Assembly (NCBI GenBank): GCA_001574975.1
Contig: KQ965790.1
Location: 128,313-192,312 of the forward strand
Origin: Gonapodya prolifera JEL478
Taxonomy: Eukaryota > Monoblepharomycota > Monoblepharidomycetes > Monoblepharidales > Gonapodyaceae
DNA: 64,000 nucleotides
Direction: 5' to 3'
Every line of letters begins with the position of its first letter. The stretch's first letter is position 1. Both the position numbers and the translations under genes were made by a program. The notes beneath the pieces were generated by a model that was not told the origin of the DNA, did not search any database, and saw only the letters and a list, made by a program, of their open reading frames with translations. Shown piece by piece: positions 8,173 to 18,100 of this stretch.

Positions 8173-9782
8173 TTAATCTTCGGCATGTTTGTAGTTAGAA
8201 TGATTTGAGCCGAACCTCGCTCGTAATTGGCATGCATCACCAGTATTCAGAACACTGTCTTCGTCATAACTGAAAATTTTTAGTTTCGGATGGTTGACAA
8301 TGTCAGACACATGACCCAATAGCGATAACCCTCGGCACTGAACATGCAGTTCTCTTAGGTTTCGCAGCCGACGGGCAACTGTTCCGACACAATCACCCAA
8401 GGAAACCTTTGTGCCATTCACATTCAAAAACTCAAGTTTTTCGCAGTGGGCCGCAACAGAGTCCACTGAACAGTTTGCGAAACCCACAGCACCTTCGACG
8501 TCTAAAGAAATAAGATTCTGAAGATAGGGGAGAAAGTCCGCGTACTGCATATGCTGCAGGTTCACATCGTTGCGAAGACACAACTCCTGCAACCGGGGAA
8601 GTCGACACAACATCCCCACTAGGTGCTGCACTTGTGTCAAGGTTTCCAAGCGTATGTCCAGTCGCAACTCCCTCAGCCCGGGACACGTGGTTGCGATTGC
8701 GTTGAAGAGACTCCCTGAAATGGTATCGTCTGTTATAACTACCATGACAAGGGAGAGTTCCCTCATTGCAGACCAATTCAAGATCGTCGAGTGCCAAAAT
8801 TCTGGGTTCTGAAGGGTAAATCCTTCGATCGCCAAGAATTCCAGTCGCGGGAATAGCTGGATTGCTTCCAAGAGCGATTGCTCCTCCAATGCGAGGTGAA
8901 ATCCATTGGCCGTATCGGGATCTTCAGTTCCTTCGAGCCCTTCCACCAGGAGTTCAGACGCATTCTCGACGAGGGGAGACCCGATCAAAGTGTGCAAAGC
9001 GCGGGCTGGCAGATTTGTAAGGTTCAAAGCTAATCTTCTGATTGTGGAGCGGTCACGGAGAGCGAACACTGGGTGTTTAAACGCCGCGGCAACGTTGAAT
9101 GTTTCGAGACGTACACGCTGCTCTGAAGGAAGCTCGCATACGGAGAGGTTGGTGAATTGAGACAAAAGGAGGCGCGCTAGGGACCACTGCTCGAACGACA
9201 TGTCGTCGACGAAATACAATGATCGCACAGTGTGGGGGTTGCCCCAAAGCTCCCACACGGACTCTACATCCGCGCAGAGTCCCAAAAGGCGGGAAAAACT
9301 GAGTGTAATTTCAGTCACTGCAAGATTGTTGGGTAGAGAATGTGGGGATTGCTTGTGGATTTTATGAAAACACATCCTCTCAGCGAGTTCGCTGAAACAG
9401 ACAAGGGACATTGCTGACCAGAGCACTTTACGTGCCTCTGCGGACCAAGACCGACTATCAGACATGAAAATGCTTGTCAGCTTGGTGAAATCGCGTGATT
9501 TCAAGGTCATTTGGGCATCACGAACCACACATGCGAAGCTGCTTTCAAGTCCTTGTTCGCATTCACGTAACGAAGGATGTGAAGAATAACCTCCGCAGGC
9601 AGCTGTCGCGCTTTACAACGCTCCAACCGGTGGAGATGTTCCCGGCAATCCGAAATGAGCGATCGTAGTTGCTCGGTGCGATGTTCGAGGGGGATCGATA
9701 GTGAGGCAGTCAGCGTTCGCCGAACGAAATCCGGGTTGATGTCTGTCGCTGATGAACGTTCACACATGGCTCTTTGAAACAC
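8173..9782 (-). CDS. F-box / leucine-rich protein, apparent frameshift near 9525
   Basis: Putative substrate receptor of an SCF ubiquitin ligase. The 5' part (9782-9510) encodes a coiled N-terminus and an F-box-like helix set (ARQLPAEVILHILRYVNANK then DLKAASHV). The 3' part (about 9528-8173, 450 codons) is an irregular leucine-rich solenoid, with strings such as LRELRLDIRLETL, LPRLQELCLRNDVNL, LISLDVEGAVGF and CEKLEFLNVNGT. The two parts are in different frames and no intron of usual size fits: the only candidate would be about 28 bp and would delete the F-box end. One missing base around 9520-9530 would join them directly. It may be an assembly error or an early pseudogene. Substrate unknown. 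Confidence 0.72.
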
Positions 9783-10250
9783 CTTGCAGTCAAATAAGTT
9801 CTCGCAAACGGGTAGGTTGGGCCGCAGTCAATACGGTTGAAATTCTGCCGGACATCCAATCATGTTTATTCGACCACGCTTGAAGAACTAGTTTGATAAG
9901 CTAGTAGTTTATCCTTCTTCTGCTGTTTTCATTCTCGGACATAATCATATTGACGGGTGTAGACCGGCAACAGTTGACACACGTGTAGTGAAGTACAAAT
10001 AGACAAGGCAAGAAGTGGGCACAGGCTGGCCTGGTACAACCTGGCGCTCTGACCCCATCGTCATCTCTGTACCAACTAATACTATTGCTGATTTTATCCT
10101 CCCCGCCGACATCCTCCCACCCAGGGCAGTAACGGTTCCCTACCCATGTTCGCAACCTTACCCAGACAGGGAAATGGAGACGAAAACCAAGAGTCAAGTG
10201 CGCGCGTAAAGGCCACACACCACTGTTTTAAGGGCCAGTTCAGTAAAGGA
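9783..10250. other. intergenic spacer, no gene recognised
   Basis: About 470 bp upstream of the F-box gene. Only short unrelated open frames are present on both strands, and no RNA gene could be recognised. CpG frequency is still normal to about 10210 and then falls. Confidence 0.5.
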
Positions 10251-10915
10251 TTCTCAAAGAGATGGTGTTGTAAAAGAAGAAGAAAGAAAAGTGTTGAAAG
10301 CTGCACATAACCAAAGATTAGGTCCGCCGCATGTAATAAAAAAATCCTTATCACTCACACCAATGAACAACTAGCAACGAGGTTGTTTGAAGGGTTGGGG
10401 CCTGATGATGGTATTGGTAGCGTTCATTAGAAGAAAAGGAACAGAATGTTACAGGTGGCATTGACATCTCTTTTGCAAATGCAGTCGCAATGCAAGCAAG
10501 ATCTGTGAAAGAAGGTGATGGGATGAGGTGAAGCAGTAACTCAATGGTGTCACAGAAGAACCCACCAAATTGCTGTACACTCTGCTTTGTTCCACTCTCC
10601 TTTGGAAACGCATGGTGGCATTGCAAGCCAATATTGCTTGTCTGGAACTTGTTGACAAGGACAACTGTAATGTCAGCATTAACAAACGCCCTACAAATAA
10701 GCTTGTTAGGGCTTGTTCAGTGTCTGCAGCTGGATTGGTTGAACTTGGCCGATCCCCATGCAATGATGCATTCTGATGGCTTGTGCTTACTGACAAACTT
10801 CTGGAACAGTGCAGATAGGGCAGCCTGCTGGCCCTGCTTCAATGCAAATCAAGGCCTGTGTTGAAAAGCGTAATCAGAGGATGGTTGGCAAACCTGCCTT
10901 TTAGAGAATATATGC

Positions 10916-13900
10916 TTACATCTTCCATCTCTTTTGCTTGTAAAACTTGAGAATGGTTAGCAGGTGGCAGAGGAAGAATGCAGCATGCTCTTCAAGGACA
11001 TGAAGATCTATAGTTTTTGTGGTGGGCATCCCACAGTTGATGAGGGTAATCTTTGGGTCCTGCGCCATTAGCTTTTCACAGGTTTTCCTGCAGAGAAGAG
11101 TTATTCAGATATGAAGCATCCCAAAAGGTGATTTTCTAAACACTCACTGAGCTGAGTTGAACTTAGCCCAATGATAGTACTCATTCATGGAGAGACTGCA
11201 ATTAACATTGTTGAGCCAGTATTTGAAGTCACTGTGGCAAAGAAAAGGTCAGGGAGGTATGATTGTGGAGGGTACTTGCTACACAACCTAGGTGAGCTGC
11301 ACAAGCCTGTAAACTGCAGGAACTTGTATGTGTGATCAAATATACATAACAAGTTGTAATGTGCATGGAACTCACCTGCAGGAACGTGATGCCAAGCTTA
11401 GGGCACGTCCTGCAGGTGTGCACATCTAAACCCGCGGCCACAGTAGTGGCACAGCAGCTAATACCCAACACTCATACTACTCTATATATTCCACATTTGT
11501 GAATGTCAATGTGACAGTACTGCCACCATCATATGGGTTGTTGTTCTGTCATCCCAGGGTCATTGGAGCCAACCAGCTTTCCTTTCAGCTTCTGGAGCCA
11601 CATGTCCATTGTGAGAGGCTCACTGGGAGGCTCCTTCTTGTGCATGTTCAGTCACGTATATATGCTGTCAGTCAAAGCACTGAGGGATGAGAATCGTAAA
11701 TGTGATGCTGAGGAAAGTTTGTATGATGGAGGAAAAAAATTTCCTTACCTCATGGCAAACTATGTCTGGATGTTTCAAACTCACCAAAGCACATAACTGT
11801 TCCCCATAATGCAACAGCAGCCTGCAGATGTAATGAGGGTAATGGAGGGAGAGGGAAGGTTCGGATATGCTGCTGTTCCACTAACGGCTCATTCTGGTGG
11901 TTCCATAGAGTTTGGGACAAACAAATAATCTCATGTAGCCCTTGCAGTGAGAACAGGAAGAGCCAAGATTGTCCATGGGCATGCGGGCAGAGTGAAAAGT
12001 TGCAGAAGATGCCTCCAATATTGTGGTTCCTGTCAAGCTTGTTCTTGATGTGGAGAAGTAATGGGAGCCACAACTGCCATTGTATGCAAACACTTGCAGC
12101 ATGGAGATTCTACTTGCCATAGAGCCAAAGAGCATAGATGAGGACATTGTTAATGCCCACAAACACGTGCTAGTAGAGGGATTGGTATCTGTGAGCTTGA
12201 AATTGCATGGTGTTGGCAAAATAGTCAAGGACAGTTTTGTTGAGGCTGAATGATTTGCCTGCATTGATTTGGGGGTTGAGTGCAGTCCAATGTCAGCATG
12301 CCATTAAGCATTCAAATTGACAGCAAAGGACACTTATGGTAGTAGAGGAGACCCCAAAGGTGACCTGCAAGCCAAATTGCCAATTGTTGGTGCCATTGCC
12401 CTCTGTTTATTGCTGCAAGAACCTTCCAAACCTTGAGTCACAGATCCTGCTTAGTTTGATGGTCTAAGTTGACTGTGACCATAACTTGACTGTTGACCAT
12501 TAATTGGTCAAGTGCACCAGCAATAATTTTTGATGAGATCACACCAGGGTAGCAAGGAGAGAATAAGCAGGAAAAACTTACACTGAGGTCTTGCATACTG
12601 CATACCATTGGGGCAGCAAGTACAATAATGACAGAGGACATAATCTGTCATAGGGGACAATTTGAGGTGTGTTTGGGGCAGCAGGGTGCTGTTGTGAGAC
12701 AGCAAGACTACAATGGTGGAGGCATTTGCCATCAAGCTGTGGAAAGATGCAACAAAGTTAAACAAGTCTCAGAAACTGAAATGCTCAGTATAATCACCTC
12801 ACAACCAGTTTCATACACTGTTGGGACTCTGTCCAGGTAGGTAAATGGTAGTTGCATTCCCCACCCAAGCTCATACGTGATCCAAGGGGTATATGCAGAG
12901 AACCTTGATTTCCAATTAGTGGGGGTAGTGGTGGAATACTGGTGCTGGTGGAAGATGGACAGGAGGTGGTGGGAGAGCAGAGCAGCGAGAGGTGCTGATG
13001 CTGGTGCTGCTGGAATAGGGGGTGCAAGTTGCATCTGGACTGTGATTTGCCAGCAGTGGCCATGCCAAGCAGCAAGGTCAGCTTGTTAGTCAATGTGTGA
13101 TAGCTCCCGCAGAATGTGTGCACTGTACATGTTGTACAAGAGGGAGGATTTGGCACACAACTGCACGATCTATGAGGCAATACGTCAGTAAATATACTAA
13201 ACAAAAACATGATTGATACACTCATGCAGAAACTGACAGCTCCTTTTATCAAATGCAGAGTGACCAGCCCAACCACATGTGGGGGTCTTTGAGGCATCAC
13301 AGCTTTGCCCAAAGACTTGATGTCTTGGAGGGAGGTGGGTTTGAGGAGATGAAGGGAAACAAGATTTGGAGGTGGTAGGCATGGACAAATGGGGTAACAA
13401 TGTGTAGTACCAATGCCAGTTGGATGTGGAGGAGTGCAGTGGTGTAATTGGTGAGACAGCAGATGGAATGGAACTGAATGTGGACTTGAATAGCAACAAC
13501 ATTGGTTTTGCCCCCATCAATGATCACAATGCAGGTGATGACTACAATGACAGTGATGGCCATGACAACAGTAATGGTCACAACAAGGGAGATGGCCACA
13601 ACAGCAACAATGAAGAGGAGGGCCACAAGGGCCATGAGGACCATGGGAACCACATGATACACAAAGACACGGTCACTGGGAACAAGGGGTTGATGCAGCA
13701 CAGCCACAGATCACCTGCTAAGTCAAAGTGGGTTTGGCAAAAGACAGAACTCAGTCAACTGGAACTAAGTGAAAGAGGGAATCCTCTTCTGCAATGCAAA
13801 CATACCATTGTGCTAGTTTAGAACCATGTGTTGTTGTTGATATGGTTTTCTAACCACTCATTCTCCACTTGCTTCTTCAGCTCTGCAATAGGATTCAAAG

Positions 13901-13976
13901 ACCTTGCATGCAACTGTCGATGCCTCTGTTGGAGCCTTTTGCCAGTGCGGGAGCTATGAGGTTTGGAAGGAACCAT
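10916..13976 (-). pseudogene. decayed multi-exon gene of unknown family inside the CpG-poor island
   Basis: Several minus-strand stretches look clearly coding but do not form one clean gene. A possible start at 13976 gives a basic N-terminus (MVPSKPHSSRTGKRLQQRHR). Segment 13169-12798 is followed by a 61-bp intron and segment 12736-12582. Segment 12268-11785 includes HIKNKLDRNHNIGGIFCNF. Segment 11231-11148 joins 11087-10916 across a 60-bp intron and ends FYKQKRWKM-stop. In-frame stops interrupt the coding stretches: TAA at 13085-13087, TAG at 12170-12172 and TAG at 12110-12112. Splicing between 13830 and 13170 is unresolved. The protein resembles no family I can name; a transposase or other element-encoded protein is possible but unproven. 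Confidence 0.5.
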
Positions 13977-14541
13977 GCCATTTTACAGTAGATGGATGAT
14001 GTGGATGGTGAGATTTGGTGGCACTAACGACCACACATCCTCTTGTAGGACGCCAGTGGATGCTAAGTGGGCTTTGACAGCACGGATTGTCTCAGCTTCT
14101 GGAAGAATCATCAAGTCAATCTGCAGACTGTTGCATGGAGACACATCAGAATTGGAGGATACCATGTCCAGTCAACCCCCAATGCCTGGTGCGCAGACTT
14201 GGGGTACAGAGCCACAAAGACTCACTTGAGAATCAATGGATGGATAAATGGAAAGTTTTTGTTGGCCAGGTGCTTTGCACAGGTCAGATGAAATGAAATG
14301 AAGCATATTGAAACAATTTAATGAAACTTTTCTTGACCACACCAACTTGTGTATTGTAAATAATTCTATCAATCAATTTTACAACAACAGATGCCAGATC
14401 CACTGCTTGAGGTCTTGTGTCTATCTTTCTCCAGTTTTCAGTGGAGTATGCAAGAATTGTACCAAGACAGGTGGGTGAAAGTCCGCAGCAACATCATGAC
14501 AAGGGTTCTCAAAACTATTCACACTTCTTTCAGAGCAACAT

Positions 14542-14940
14542 GTGGTAAAAGACAGGGGCTTTGATTTAAACAGGCAACAACTCATTGCCACCATCAAGGC
14601 TCTCCATGCTGCAAAAGTCATGGTGTCTGAACTGGCTTGTAGAGTCTATGTCACTTGGAAGGGAGTGTACAACTGGATCCAAGATCCCCACTCTGCACAC
14701 CCCCAAAGGGTTTTCACTGGAAGAAAGCACAAATTGTCACCAATTGAAGAATGGGCAGTGGTGACTTGGTTGGAGAGTGAAAATGGTGGAACACCAAAGG
14801 ATGCTGCAAGGGCTGTAGCAGTGTTTTACAGAGTGAAAGTTACACAGCAAACCATCTCCAATATTGTAAAACAAGTAGAAACAAGGCGCAAGAAAGCAAT
14901 GGGGATGGGACTGCAGCCTTCATCAACAAGTCTTCCATGA
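14542..14940 (+). CDS. helix-turn-helix ORF, possible transposase DNA-binding domain
   Basis: A single open frame of about 130 codons in the CpG-poor island. It has two HTH-like halves: RQQLIATIKALHAAKVMVSE with TWKGVYNWIQDP, and LSPIEEWAVVTWLESENGGTP with VKVTQQTISNIVKQVE. Bipartite helix-turn-helix heads of this kind are found in pogo/Tc1-like and other DNA transposases and in CENP-B-like proteins. No catalytic DDE block follows: the frame stops at 14940 and the next 230 bp are AT-rich without a gene. No ATG is placed well at the start; an upstream exon about 14395-14540, in another frame, reads as coding (MQELYQDRWVKVRSNIMTRV) and could be spliced to it. Function inferred only from fold-like pattern. 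Confidence 0.45.
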   Translation: MVKDRGFDLNRQQLIATIKALHAAKVMVSELACRVYVTWKGVYNWIQDPHSAHPQRVFTGRKHKLSPIEEWAVVTWLESENGGTPKDAARAVAVFYRVKVTQQTISNIVKQVETRRKKAMGMGLQPSSTSLP

Positions 14941-15174
14941 CAAAACTATTTGCACTTGATTGTATAGTGTGGTAAATTTATCATTACCTTAAAGAATATA
15001 TCTACAAGATTATTACACATGTTTGCTGAACCAATTTTGAGCCAGATCAGATGGGGCGAGGGTGCTTTGGTCGAGTTACCCAATATTCTTGTACAAAATG
15101 TGAAAAATGATAGGCCCTCATTCTTGGTAAGACAGAAGACAGTACACATACTAAAATAGTTATTGAAAGCAACA

Positions 15175-18100
15175 TTATGGCCTCCCCACGTCAATGCTGC
15201 CGATCCGCTCCTTGGTTTTCCCTTCAAAGAGAGATAGCCGCCGCTTGTCCACATCGGACGCACGACCCGTTACGTTTGTCTCTGGGATCGGCAACTGCTT
15301 CAGTGTATCAGCAAGGACCAGGCTTCCTTCATCCTCGGGTATGGTCGCCTGGGAAGAAAGGATGTCGCGCGAAGAAGACTGTTTCTTTCGTTTCACTTTC
15401 TTGGTACTTGCGATTTTCTGTTGTGAAGAGGTGATCGAAGGCTCCACTGGAATTGCTTGTACATCGGTGCTGGCGAGGCTGTGCGCCACTGTTTGTGAAG
15501 ACTCCTGTCTTCCGATCTGCGACGTGACATTTGTTTGAGAAACCATAGCAGTGTAGCTTTCTTCCGGGCTTTCGTGGGTACGAAACGTATCGTGAAGGCA
15601 TGAACCGACCGTCATATTGCTTTGAAGTTTCTCGTCCGAATCACTCAATCCCCTGAATGAGAGTCTCCGGCTGTGCAAGGGCGCGTTAGCACTGGCATGT
15701 TCTCTCGATTGAGCTCCTTCCGGCTTCTCGTACTTGTACACTACAAGAGGTTGCCTTTCTCCAAAGCCACCAATCGCCAAAAAGTGATCCAGTGGGTGAA
15801 AGGAGAGCGTCAAAACTGGCGTTGGCTTTCCTGACCGGGAAGTTCTCGCCGAAAAGAATGGGAATGGAGGCCGAAAGTCATCGACAGTTCGCATACTTGT
15901 GACGGGTTCATCTTCCAAAGTCTCGTCCTGTGGCTCGTCCGCATACGTCGCAGCGATATATCCCGTCTCGGCATTGAACATGTAAACGCGCCCGTCTGTC
16001 GAGCCCGCCACAACATAAGTCCCACACGGAGTGAACTCGGCCGACACCAGGGCCAAGTGGGTCGGGTTGACGTCGGCGAACGTTTCCCTTCCACCCACCA
16101 AGGTGGTCACGGATGTGGCTGTCGGTGACCGGGATCTCAAAAGGGTCGGACTAGCGCTCCGACTATGCACTGAAACAGCTGCTGATCCCGCAAGCCGTGT
16201 GCCATCTCGGTGCGTGTGTGATGCGCCCTCGCCAGCGAGGGTGGTCAGGGTGCGGTGGACCCGCACATCTACCGTGCGCAAGACGGAGCCCTCCGAGGGC
16301 GTCGAGGCAGAGAGAAAAAGAAGCTTACGGTTCGTCGGGTGCATGCGAAGCGACCGAATCGGAGCACGCTAGCGAGAGTAAATGGCATCAACGGTTGAGC
16401 TCAGAATGCAACAAACGCCAGCATCCCTCGAACCCACAGCAACAGTGATAATCTTAATGCACTCAAACGCCATCCAATCAGGCTCTTTCATTGGTGTATC
16501 TTCCTCTCTTCTCCCCTCAGCACTCTGCCCAACCGTGCAACTCCACACCCTCACCATCCCACCTCCGTCGCCCGAGAACATTTTCGTCCCATCACCCGTG
16601 AACGCGATGCAATTCACATAGGTCTCGTGGCCAGAAAAGATGCCCACTGGCCTCGCAGAGCCATTGTCAACTTCTCCAGCGTCAGCCCCTTCGCATCGCC
16701 ACGCCCTGACGCGGCTATCCCAGCCACCCGTAAAGAGGATCCTCGGCCAGTCCGCCATAGGATGCCACGCGCACGTGTACACGTATCCAGGGTGGCGGAA
16801 CGAGTGCGTCTGACGAACTCCGGATTCGGAGATGGTCCACACTCGTGCCGTGCTGTCTGCAGAGGCAGACGCGAGGAGAGAGTCATCGTGAGACCACGCG
16901 AGCTGGTAGACGGGGCCGTGGTGGCCTGGAAGGGACGCGACGCGGGTGTATGACGGGAGGTGGTAGAGCTTGATTGGGTGGGAGGACGCGATTGGGGAGT
17001 TGGAGGGCGGGGAAAGGGCGGCAAAGGAGAGGTAAAGGCCTTGGTGCGAGAATGCGAGCGTGGAGCAACCCCTTCGAAGTGTCGATATGTGAGAGAAAAA
17101 AGTACATGAGAGATGTTTCGCTTCAGTCGACTCACTTGGGCCCCGCATCGATGGTGCACTGAAGCCTGTTTGGAATCTTGCACTGCTGCCCTCGAGACCG
17201 TCGCCAATTCGGCTACACGGGCGAGAGCGCGTTAAAAATGCCGCTGAGCCTTCCTTCGCCTCTAACAACTGATTGCAGTACCAACCCACCCACCTTTTCA
17301 ACCATCCCCACCAAGCTTCTCCACACCCCGCCTCCACCCTCCACCCTCCTCTTCCACTCCTCCACCATGTCATCGTACCCGACCTTGCCCACTTCCACGT
17401 CGGTCGCAAACACAGGCCGCCCGCCCACCCTCCTCGCCCCGATTGCGACGTGTGCCTTGATGGTCACGAACAGGGACCCAGGGTACTTGATCCTGCCCGG
17501 GCGGGGAAAGAACGATAGCAGTGGCTGCGGGCGGAGCGAAGGGTAGACGGGGCAAATGCGGTCGCGGTCGCCGAGGACGGCAGAGTGTTTGCGGTAGTGG
17601 TACAGCTGCAGCCGCACTGTAGATTCAGTGTTGGCCCTCGGGTATCCGTGTGCACCGGGGCCCGTTCGCCCGACCAGCTTGAGGAACGCAAACGCGACCC
17701 GGCGCCACCCCGAGAGCTCCACATCCGGGTCTCGCGCCTGCGCCTTGGGGAAAGACCGCAGGGGCGTCCACTCGTGCTTCTGCTTCACCCTCTGCTCAGC
17801 AGGGCGGCTCGACGTCGACGGGGACGTGTACCCCGGCGGAAGGGGCGTGTGGTCGTCCCAGTCGAGAATCTCGAAAACGGCCGCGGCAGACGGGTGCGCG
17901 AGGATGTGCAGGTAGTCTTCGTTAAAGATGAGCTCTTCGGACCATTGAGGGGTGATGGTGGCGTGGGAGGGTAGGTCGAACGGCTGGCAGGGGGTTGGGC
18001 GTATGTGTGAGTTGAACACCAAGAGCAGAGCGGGCCGTTCCGTACCTTTGTAACGATGGGGAGAATGTAGTCGATGGCGCCCTCGCGAGGCGCGGAAACG

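Follow-up and report, generated by a model that had tools for sequence, protein, structure and literature searches.

The window analysed here is a 64-kb stretch of DNA (C60:128313-192312) within a 47.6-Mb assembly of 207 contigs. It contains an island of about 5 kb in which the dinucleotide CpG is strongly depleted and which appears to be a nested set of transposable-element (TE) remnants, flanked on both sides by CpG-normal open reading frames (ORFs; Table 1). Over positions 10,230-15,174 the ratio of observed to expected CpG (o/e) is 0.15 (36 CG vs. 243 expected), against 1.0 in the remainder of the window (4377 vs. 4374), and both TG (504 seen, 319 expected) and CA (472 seen, 286 expected) are in excess. 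When the window is cut into 500-bp bins, o/e is 0.04-0.21 in the nine bins spanning 10,501-15,000 and 0.55-1.36 in all others. All of the window's 11 longest CpG-free gaps fall inside the island, and the longest run of C without a following G reaches 134, against a maximum of 46 in 1000 random draws made with the mean rate of the window.

The two-state change-point that delimits the island (log-likelihood gain 191) has 2-lnL support of 10,213-10,488 for its left edge and of 15,181-15,201 for its right edge. The immediate flanks are at o/e 1.12 (9,001-9,837) and 1.05 (15,190-15,700), thus there is no visible spreading of the depletion. These values agree with an earlier note on this DNA, which had described a CpG-poor block at about 10.25-15.17 kb, rich in TG and CA and with zero CpG in 12168-12875; the CpGs next to that gap start at 12,166 and 12,876. 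The abrupt edges that it described hold for CpG, but repeat-derived DNA starts already at about 9,990, some 220 bp beyond the left CpG edge.

Table 1. Features of the island and its surroundings, in window positions
Feature	Position	Strand	Remarks
Left flanking ORF, CpG-normal	8173..9528	-	Weak leucine-rich-repeat match below cut-off
Degenerate ~145-bp repeat resembling a long terminal repeat (LTR), just outside the island, CpG-normal	9836..9985	+	o/e 1.08; 40 further rows, 78-87% identity
Segment A, repeat	9991..11185	.	~89% identical copy on contig C1; left end placed to within 2-3 bp
Outermost ~240 bp of segment A, most CpG retained	9991..10230	.	o/e 0.64 here, 0.57 in the C1 copy
CpG-depleted island, maximum-likelihood segment	10213..15189	.	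0.037 CpG per C within, 0.280 outside (two-state change-point)
Empty site of the hAT transposon carried by the C1 copy between an 8-bp duplication	10860..10867	.	
5-bp target-site duplication, left copy	11272..11276	+	
Solo LTR	11277..11516	+	240 bp, TG...CA ends; keeps 4/8 family CpG sites
5-bp target-site duplication, right copy	11517..11521	+	
Core	11522..13528	.	Single-copy apart from one ~70-bp match; contains the longest CpG-free gap
Segment B, repeat	13529..14399	+	Common to contig C64, ~80% identity
ORF resembling the N-terminal helix-turn-helix (HTH) region of a DDE (IS630/Tc1-like) transposase	14542..14940	+	HTH_32, HTH_29 matches below curated cut-off
Segment C, right-terminal repeat	14740..15134	+	Common to L005-L009, 88-93%; pieces in L022, L023
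Right flanking WD40 gene, two ORFs, CpG-normal	15175..17409	-	ORF ends at island edge

Repeated and single-copy parts of the island

Searching the assembly with the island sequence yielded 53 rows, its own included; as 40 of the 380 initial candidates were scored, copy counts are lower bounds. About half of the island, ~2.5 of its 5.0 kb, is repeated elsewhere in the assembly, and the remainder is single-copy. From this content, the island reads as a mosaic of nested TE remnants. The inserted element that the earlier note had proposed therefore holds in part: transposon remnants are present, but in a nested arrangement and not as one single insertion, and the further copies it had looked to were found for the repeated half and not for the rest, chiefly the core. 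It had also proposed a search for terminal repeats at the island edges, but no pair of inverted repeats and no target duplication bracketing the entire island emerged from the repeat search, nor was any seen by eye at the edges. The lack of bracketing repeats is in keeping with a mosaic.

The sequence at 11,277-11,516 is called a solo LTR because of its TG...CA ends, its target duplication (5 bp, within the 4-6 bp expected of such elements) and the purine-rich sequence common to six family copies on their upstream side, into which these run like the 3' LTRs of longer elements. The family has at least ~40 further rows in the genome at 80-96% identity, mostly 92-96%; the aligned copies have TG...CA ends in common, and matching 5-bp flanks were seen by eye in at least 8 of 31. 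Segment A is recognised by its C1 copy, in which an 8-bp duplication brackets a 3.1-kb insert (L012 5311-8418), the window copy being the empty site. This insert has both marks of a hAT transposon, namely the 8-bp target duplication and an encoded hAT dimerisation domain (E 2.2e-15), as well as similar inverted ends by reading.

At the other side, segment C is the right end of a family whose copies L005-L009 share a different inner sequence. Overlapping it, the ORF at 14,542-14,940 is likely the N-terminus of an IS630/Tc1-type transposase. Its protein (frame 14,500-14,937) matches the genome at 18 places, its own among them, and the catalytic DDE part was not seen within the window. In a distant relative (L010), HTH_23/HTH_32 matches are followed in the next frame by a weak match to DDE_3 (E 0.0011); all of them are below cut-off. 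The ~77-bp right end of segment C (window ~15,058-15,134) starts at the identical base in L022 and L023, the latter also holding a longer segment C piece slightly upstream of the ~77-bp stretch; this stretch may represent an independent, very short mobile unit. The WD40 gene's ORF ends (window 15175) ~40 bp from the segment C end. An insertion on the segment C side may have cut or set the 3' end of this gene.

A Pfam search of ten island frames returned only weak HTH matches and, for one frame, a YdaS match that is weaker still, and the core frames scanned matched neither a transposon nor a cellular family. The only further match of the core is ~70 bp long, on contig C64, and absence of a match does not prove rarity. 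We infer a transposon origin for this single-copy core.

CpG decay between repeat copies

The solo LTR family allowed CpG sites to be compared with other C/G positions in 29 copies; of the 31 aligned, the two belonging to a divergent LTR subfamily were excluded. A CpG site was defined as CG kept in at least two copies, which somewhat favours finding decay; on the other hand, the truncated copy L018_2063 was retained and contributes 32 non-CpG differences that work against the contrast. At the eight CpG sites, the 230 dinucleotides include 91 TG or CA and 4 of another kind, while C>T or G>A is found at 57 of 2859 C/G positions outside these sites, a contrast of about tenfold per base with ~20% per base at CpG. 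Retention in individual solo LTRs ranges from 1 to all 8 of the CpGs, thus the loss is gradual and not all-or-none.

Pairwise counts made without a consensus gave the same picture. CG faces TG or CA in 48% of solo LTR comparisons (1255/2615), in 48% for segment C (58/120, plus 28 other changes) and in 71% for the segment A interior (10/14), compared with transitions at C/G outside CpG of 7.6%, 8.1% and 14.1%, respectively. CpG sites have therefore decayed faster than other C sites between copies, and these CpG-specific differences support the footprint of cytosine methylation and deamination that the earlier note had proposed, as read from mutation patterns.

The degenerate ~145-bp repeat just outside the island behaves differently. 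Upstream of one copy (L025), an apparent copia reverse-transcriptase/RNase H end and a polypurine tract were seen by eye, and from this context the repeat is apparently copia-like. Among six copies, in five fetched loci at o/e 0.74-1.09, CG faces TG or CA in 21% (20/95) of pairwise comparisons, and the change per C at CpG (~10%) is near the 9.1% at other C/G sites. This family serves as negative control, since it lies outside the depleted compartment and has hardly any CpG bias.

The nested hAT insertion gives an order of arrival. In the C1 copy, the hAT insert has an o/e of 0.55 and the segment A host sequence on its two sides 0.07 and 0.26. A C64 stretch with a related hAT (~3,500-5,800 of L013, pieces 72-78% identical) has an o/e of 0.29-0.79 between tracts at 0.00-0.26. 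The later-arriving hAT is thus less decayed, as expected if decay reflects time under methylation; alternatively, the contrast may stem from either element having had less CpG to begin with.

Depletion across the assembly and methylation genes

Twenty random stretches of 5 kb were drawn, of which one inside the window was omitted; the 19 used come from 19 contigs and, with one wholly N and two partly N, yielded 175 usable 500-bp intervals. The draws were limited to contigs C1-C60 and their first 275 kb, and repeats may be under-counted. The sample is bimodal, with o/e below 0.5 in 22 of the 175 intervals, all in four stretches, and 0.7-1.2 in 144, and the island is therefore one of many. In a translated search, matches to the solo LTR came from two of the four depleted stretches (L047, L055) and from no other random stretch.

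The ORFs of depleted tracts (93 of at least 90 amino acids, in 34 loci mostly chosen for repeats, 17 being from random stretches) gave ten Pfam families at E<=0.01, the best at 3e-4, including five HTH families and DDE_3. They also gave four weak non-HTH/DDE matches (Cas12f1-like_TNB, Fer4_12, PSD4 and IFT57; best E 0.0007). The CpG-normal ORFs (the 80 longest of 343) gave 27 families with values up to 3e-42, including kinesin, histone deacetylase, RhoGEF, CFA20 and CATSPERB. The comparison is biased by how both sets were chosen, and within these sampling biases the weak transposase-type matches on one side and the strong cellular families on the other indicate that depletion marks transposon-like DNA and not ordinary genes. 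The earlier note had seen the genes as otherwise CpG-rich and had named two observations that would speak against its reading, many ordinary genes equally depleted, or a genome without methylation machinery and an island of single-copy content. Neither observation was made: the depleted tracts hold transposon-like ORFs, about half of the island is repeated, and methylation genes are present.

For PF00145, five candidates yielded three matches, which belong to two genes. The gene on contig C14 has DNMT1-RFD and methylase pieces above cut-off and two BAH domains below it (25.3 and 28.0 vs. 30.8 bits), its last piece has DNMT1 in 26 of 29 solved-structure rows, and its PCQ catalytic Cys motif is, by reading, split by an apparent intron. 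With RFD, BAH and a methylase bearing the catalytic Cys motif, it is a predicted DNMT1. The best solved relatives of the C12 gene are DNMT2. Four contigs carry SRA domains, at six places in total. On C9, an SRA ORF is immediately preceded by a PHD ORF. PHD followed by SRA is the order in UHRF1; of the UHRF1 set UBL, TTD, PHD, SRA and RING, PHD and SRA were looked for, and the C9 pair of neighbouring ORFs is by its predicted domains of the UHRF1 type. Contig C29 (L064, C29:130001-135000) has three SRA-domain matches inside a span of 2 kb, possibly duplicated SRA genes. DNMT3, DNMT5 or DIM-2 were not identified among the PF00145 matches, in one exon-by-exon search that could miss one.

Proposed explanation and comparison with known systems

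We propose that the island is very probably an old cluster of nested TE remnants that was long kept CpG-methylated and whose CpGs deaminated to TpG/CpA. A maintenance system, most likely of the DNMT1/UHRF1 type, would keep the island CpGs methylated over a long time, and methylated CpGs would deaminate faster than anything restores CpG. We favour this explanation because of the repeat content, the CpG-specific copy differences, the less-decayed younger hAT, the normal flanks and the enzyme genes. From these sequence comparisons we infer the direction of the changes, present-day methylation, silencing of the elements and the role of the methylase found as the agent.

Several points weigh against it. 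Methylation and silencing are read from mutation patterns. None of the three PF00145 matches was recognised as a de novo methylase, the type that would first set methylation, and a review (PMC13297926) states that in early-diverging fungi 6-methyladenine (6mA) has largely taken over from 5-methylcytosine (5mC) as the principal mark. The core is single-copy with no Pfam match in the frames scanned, and its transposon origin follows from its neighbours and the shared depletion. The ~145-bp repeat at 9,836-9,985 escapes depletion entirely (small numbers). In the outer 240 bp of segment A, 7 of 12 CpG sites are common to both copies and 3 of 12 changed to TG/CA, and two CpGs common to most copies lie in the final 80 bp of segment C (small numbers). 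The retention in segment A is not predicted by a simple rule of whole-element methylation; such CpG-keeping ends would be either unmethylated or protected by flanking chromatin. A doubtful extension, prompted by the retention of CpG in the outer ~240 bp of segment A at two unrelated sites, is that methylation stops a set distance inside element ends, with the ends or active-gene junctions perhaps acting as boundaries, and with DNMT1 as the sole PF00145 methylase found besides the DNMT2-like one.

Repeat-induced point mutation (RIP), a premeiotic mutation of repeats, would find its target in this island, and among solo LTR transitions outside CpG the CA context is indeed the highest (34/1414, 2.4%, vs. 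11/839 for CT and 12/606, 2.0%, for CC). However, each of these contexts is low compared with the ~20% per base at CpG, and single solo LTRs show the gradual retention of 1-8 of 8 CpGs. TA is not raised in the island either (206 seen, 376 expected, o/e 0.55) relative to the remainder of the window (1738 seen, 3063 expected, 0.57). Mainly non-CpG C>T changes, such as at CpA, with raised TA would characterise RIP, and as neither is found we reject it as extremely improbable. Compositional constraint or foreign DNA from a CpG-suppressed donor, in which the CpGs were never present, would accord with the lack of a close relative of the single-copy core in the genome. Yet copies of the same family differ far more at CpG than elsewhere, mostly as CG vs. 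TG/CA, and LTR, hAT and DDE-type elements are depleted to differing degrees within the same tracts; on these grounds we reject this origin too, which we consider very improbable.

A further possibility concerns the core only and is compatible with long-term methylation of a TE cluster. The core may be degraded former host DNA between transposons that was methylated along with them, as its single-copy, depleted state and the absence of Pfam matches among the scanned frames would allow. We regard this as unlikely, since no cellular family was seen in those frames either and the outer flanks are without spreading.

Taken as old methylated TE remnants, the island is a new and clean example of an already known process, and the principle is not new. 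What the case adds is that a methylation-scarred transposon compartment with sharp borders can be revealed by sequence alone in a flagellated-fungus-like genome, with a CpG-normal repeat family as internal control and nested insertions as a clock, through which it can be tested directly how fast methylation acts and how far it extends.

Sections of PMC12695648 describe 5mC confined to transposons and 6mA marking expressed genes in Spizellomyces and other early-branching fungi. The likeness lies in 5mC on transposons there and in CpG-poor transposon tracts with CpG-normal genes here, while 5mC was measured in that case and is deduced from mutation in ours. For the rust Austropuccinia psidii, parts of PMC12774611 invoke historic 5mC deamination for the CpG depletion of transposons, report younger transposons as CpG-richer and consider RIP unlikely. 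All three points have their counterpart here, but that depletion is genome-wide in a 1-Gb genome, and the present one forms sharp islands in a mostly CpG-normal assembly. Fungal DNMT1-RFD and TE-centred methylation are reviewed in portions of PMC13297926 and PMC7862722; the combination of RFD, BAH and methylase in one gene and the CpG preference resemble CpG maintenance by DNMT1-RFD. This group is listed under Basidiomycota in the relevant part of PMC13297926, whereas our genome is, judged from its gene content, flagellated-fungus-like. This judgement draws on Chitin_synth_2 matches (36 rows), a family that also gave matches in 4 of 14 bacterial and archaeal controls, and on the cilium-type families CFA20 and CATSPERB. 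As the DNMT groups in the portion of PMC7862722 concerned were built with Chytridiomycota included, a DNMT1 in that group is no surprise.

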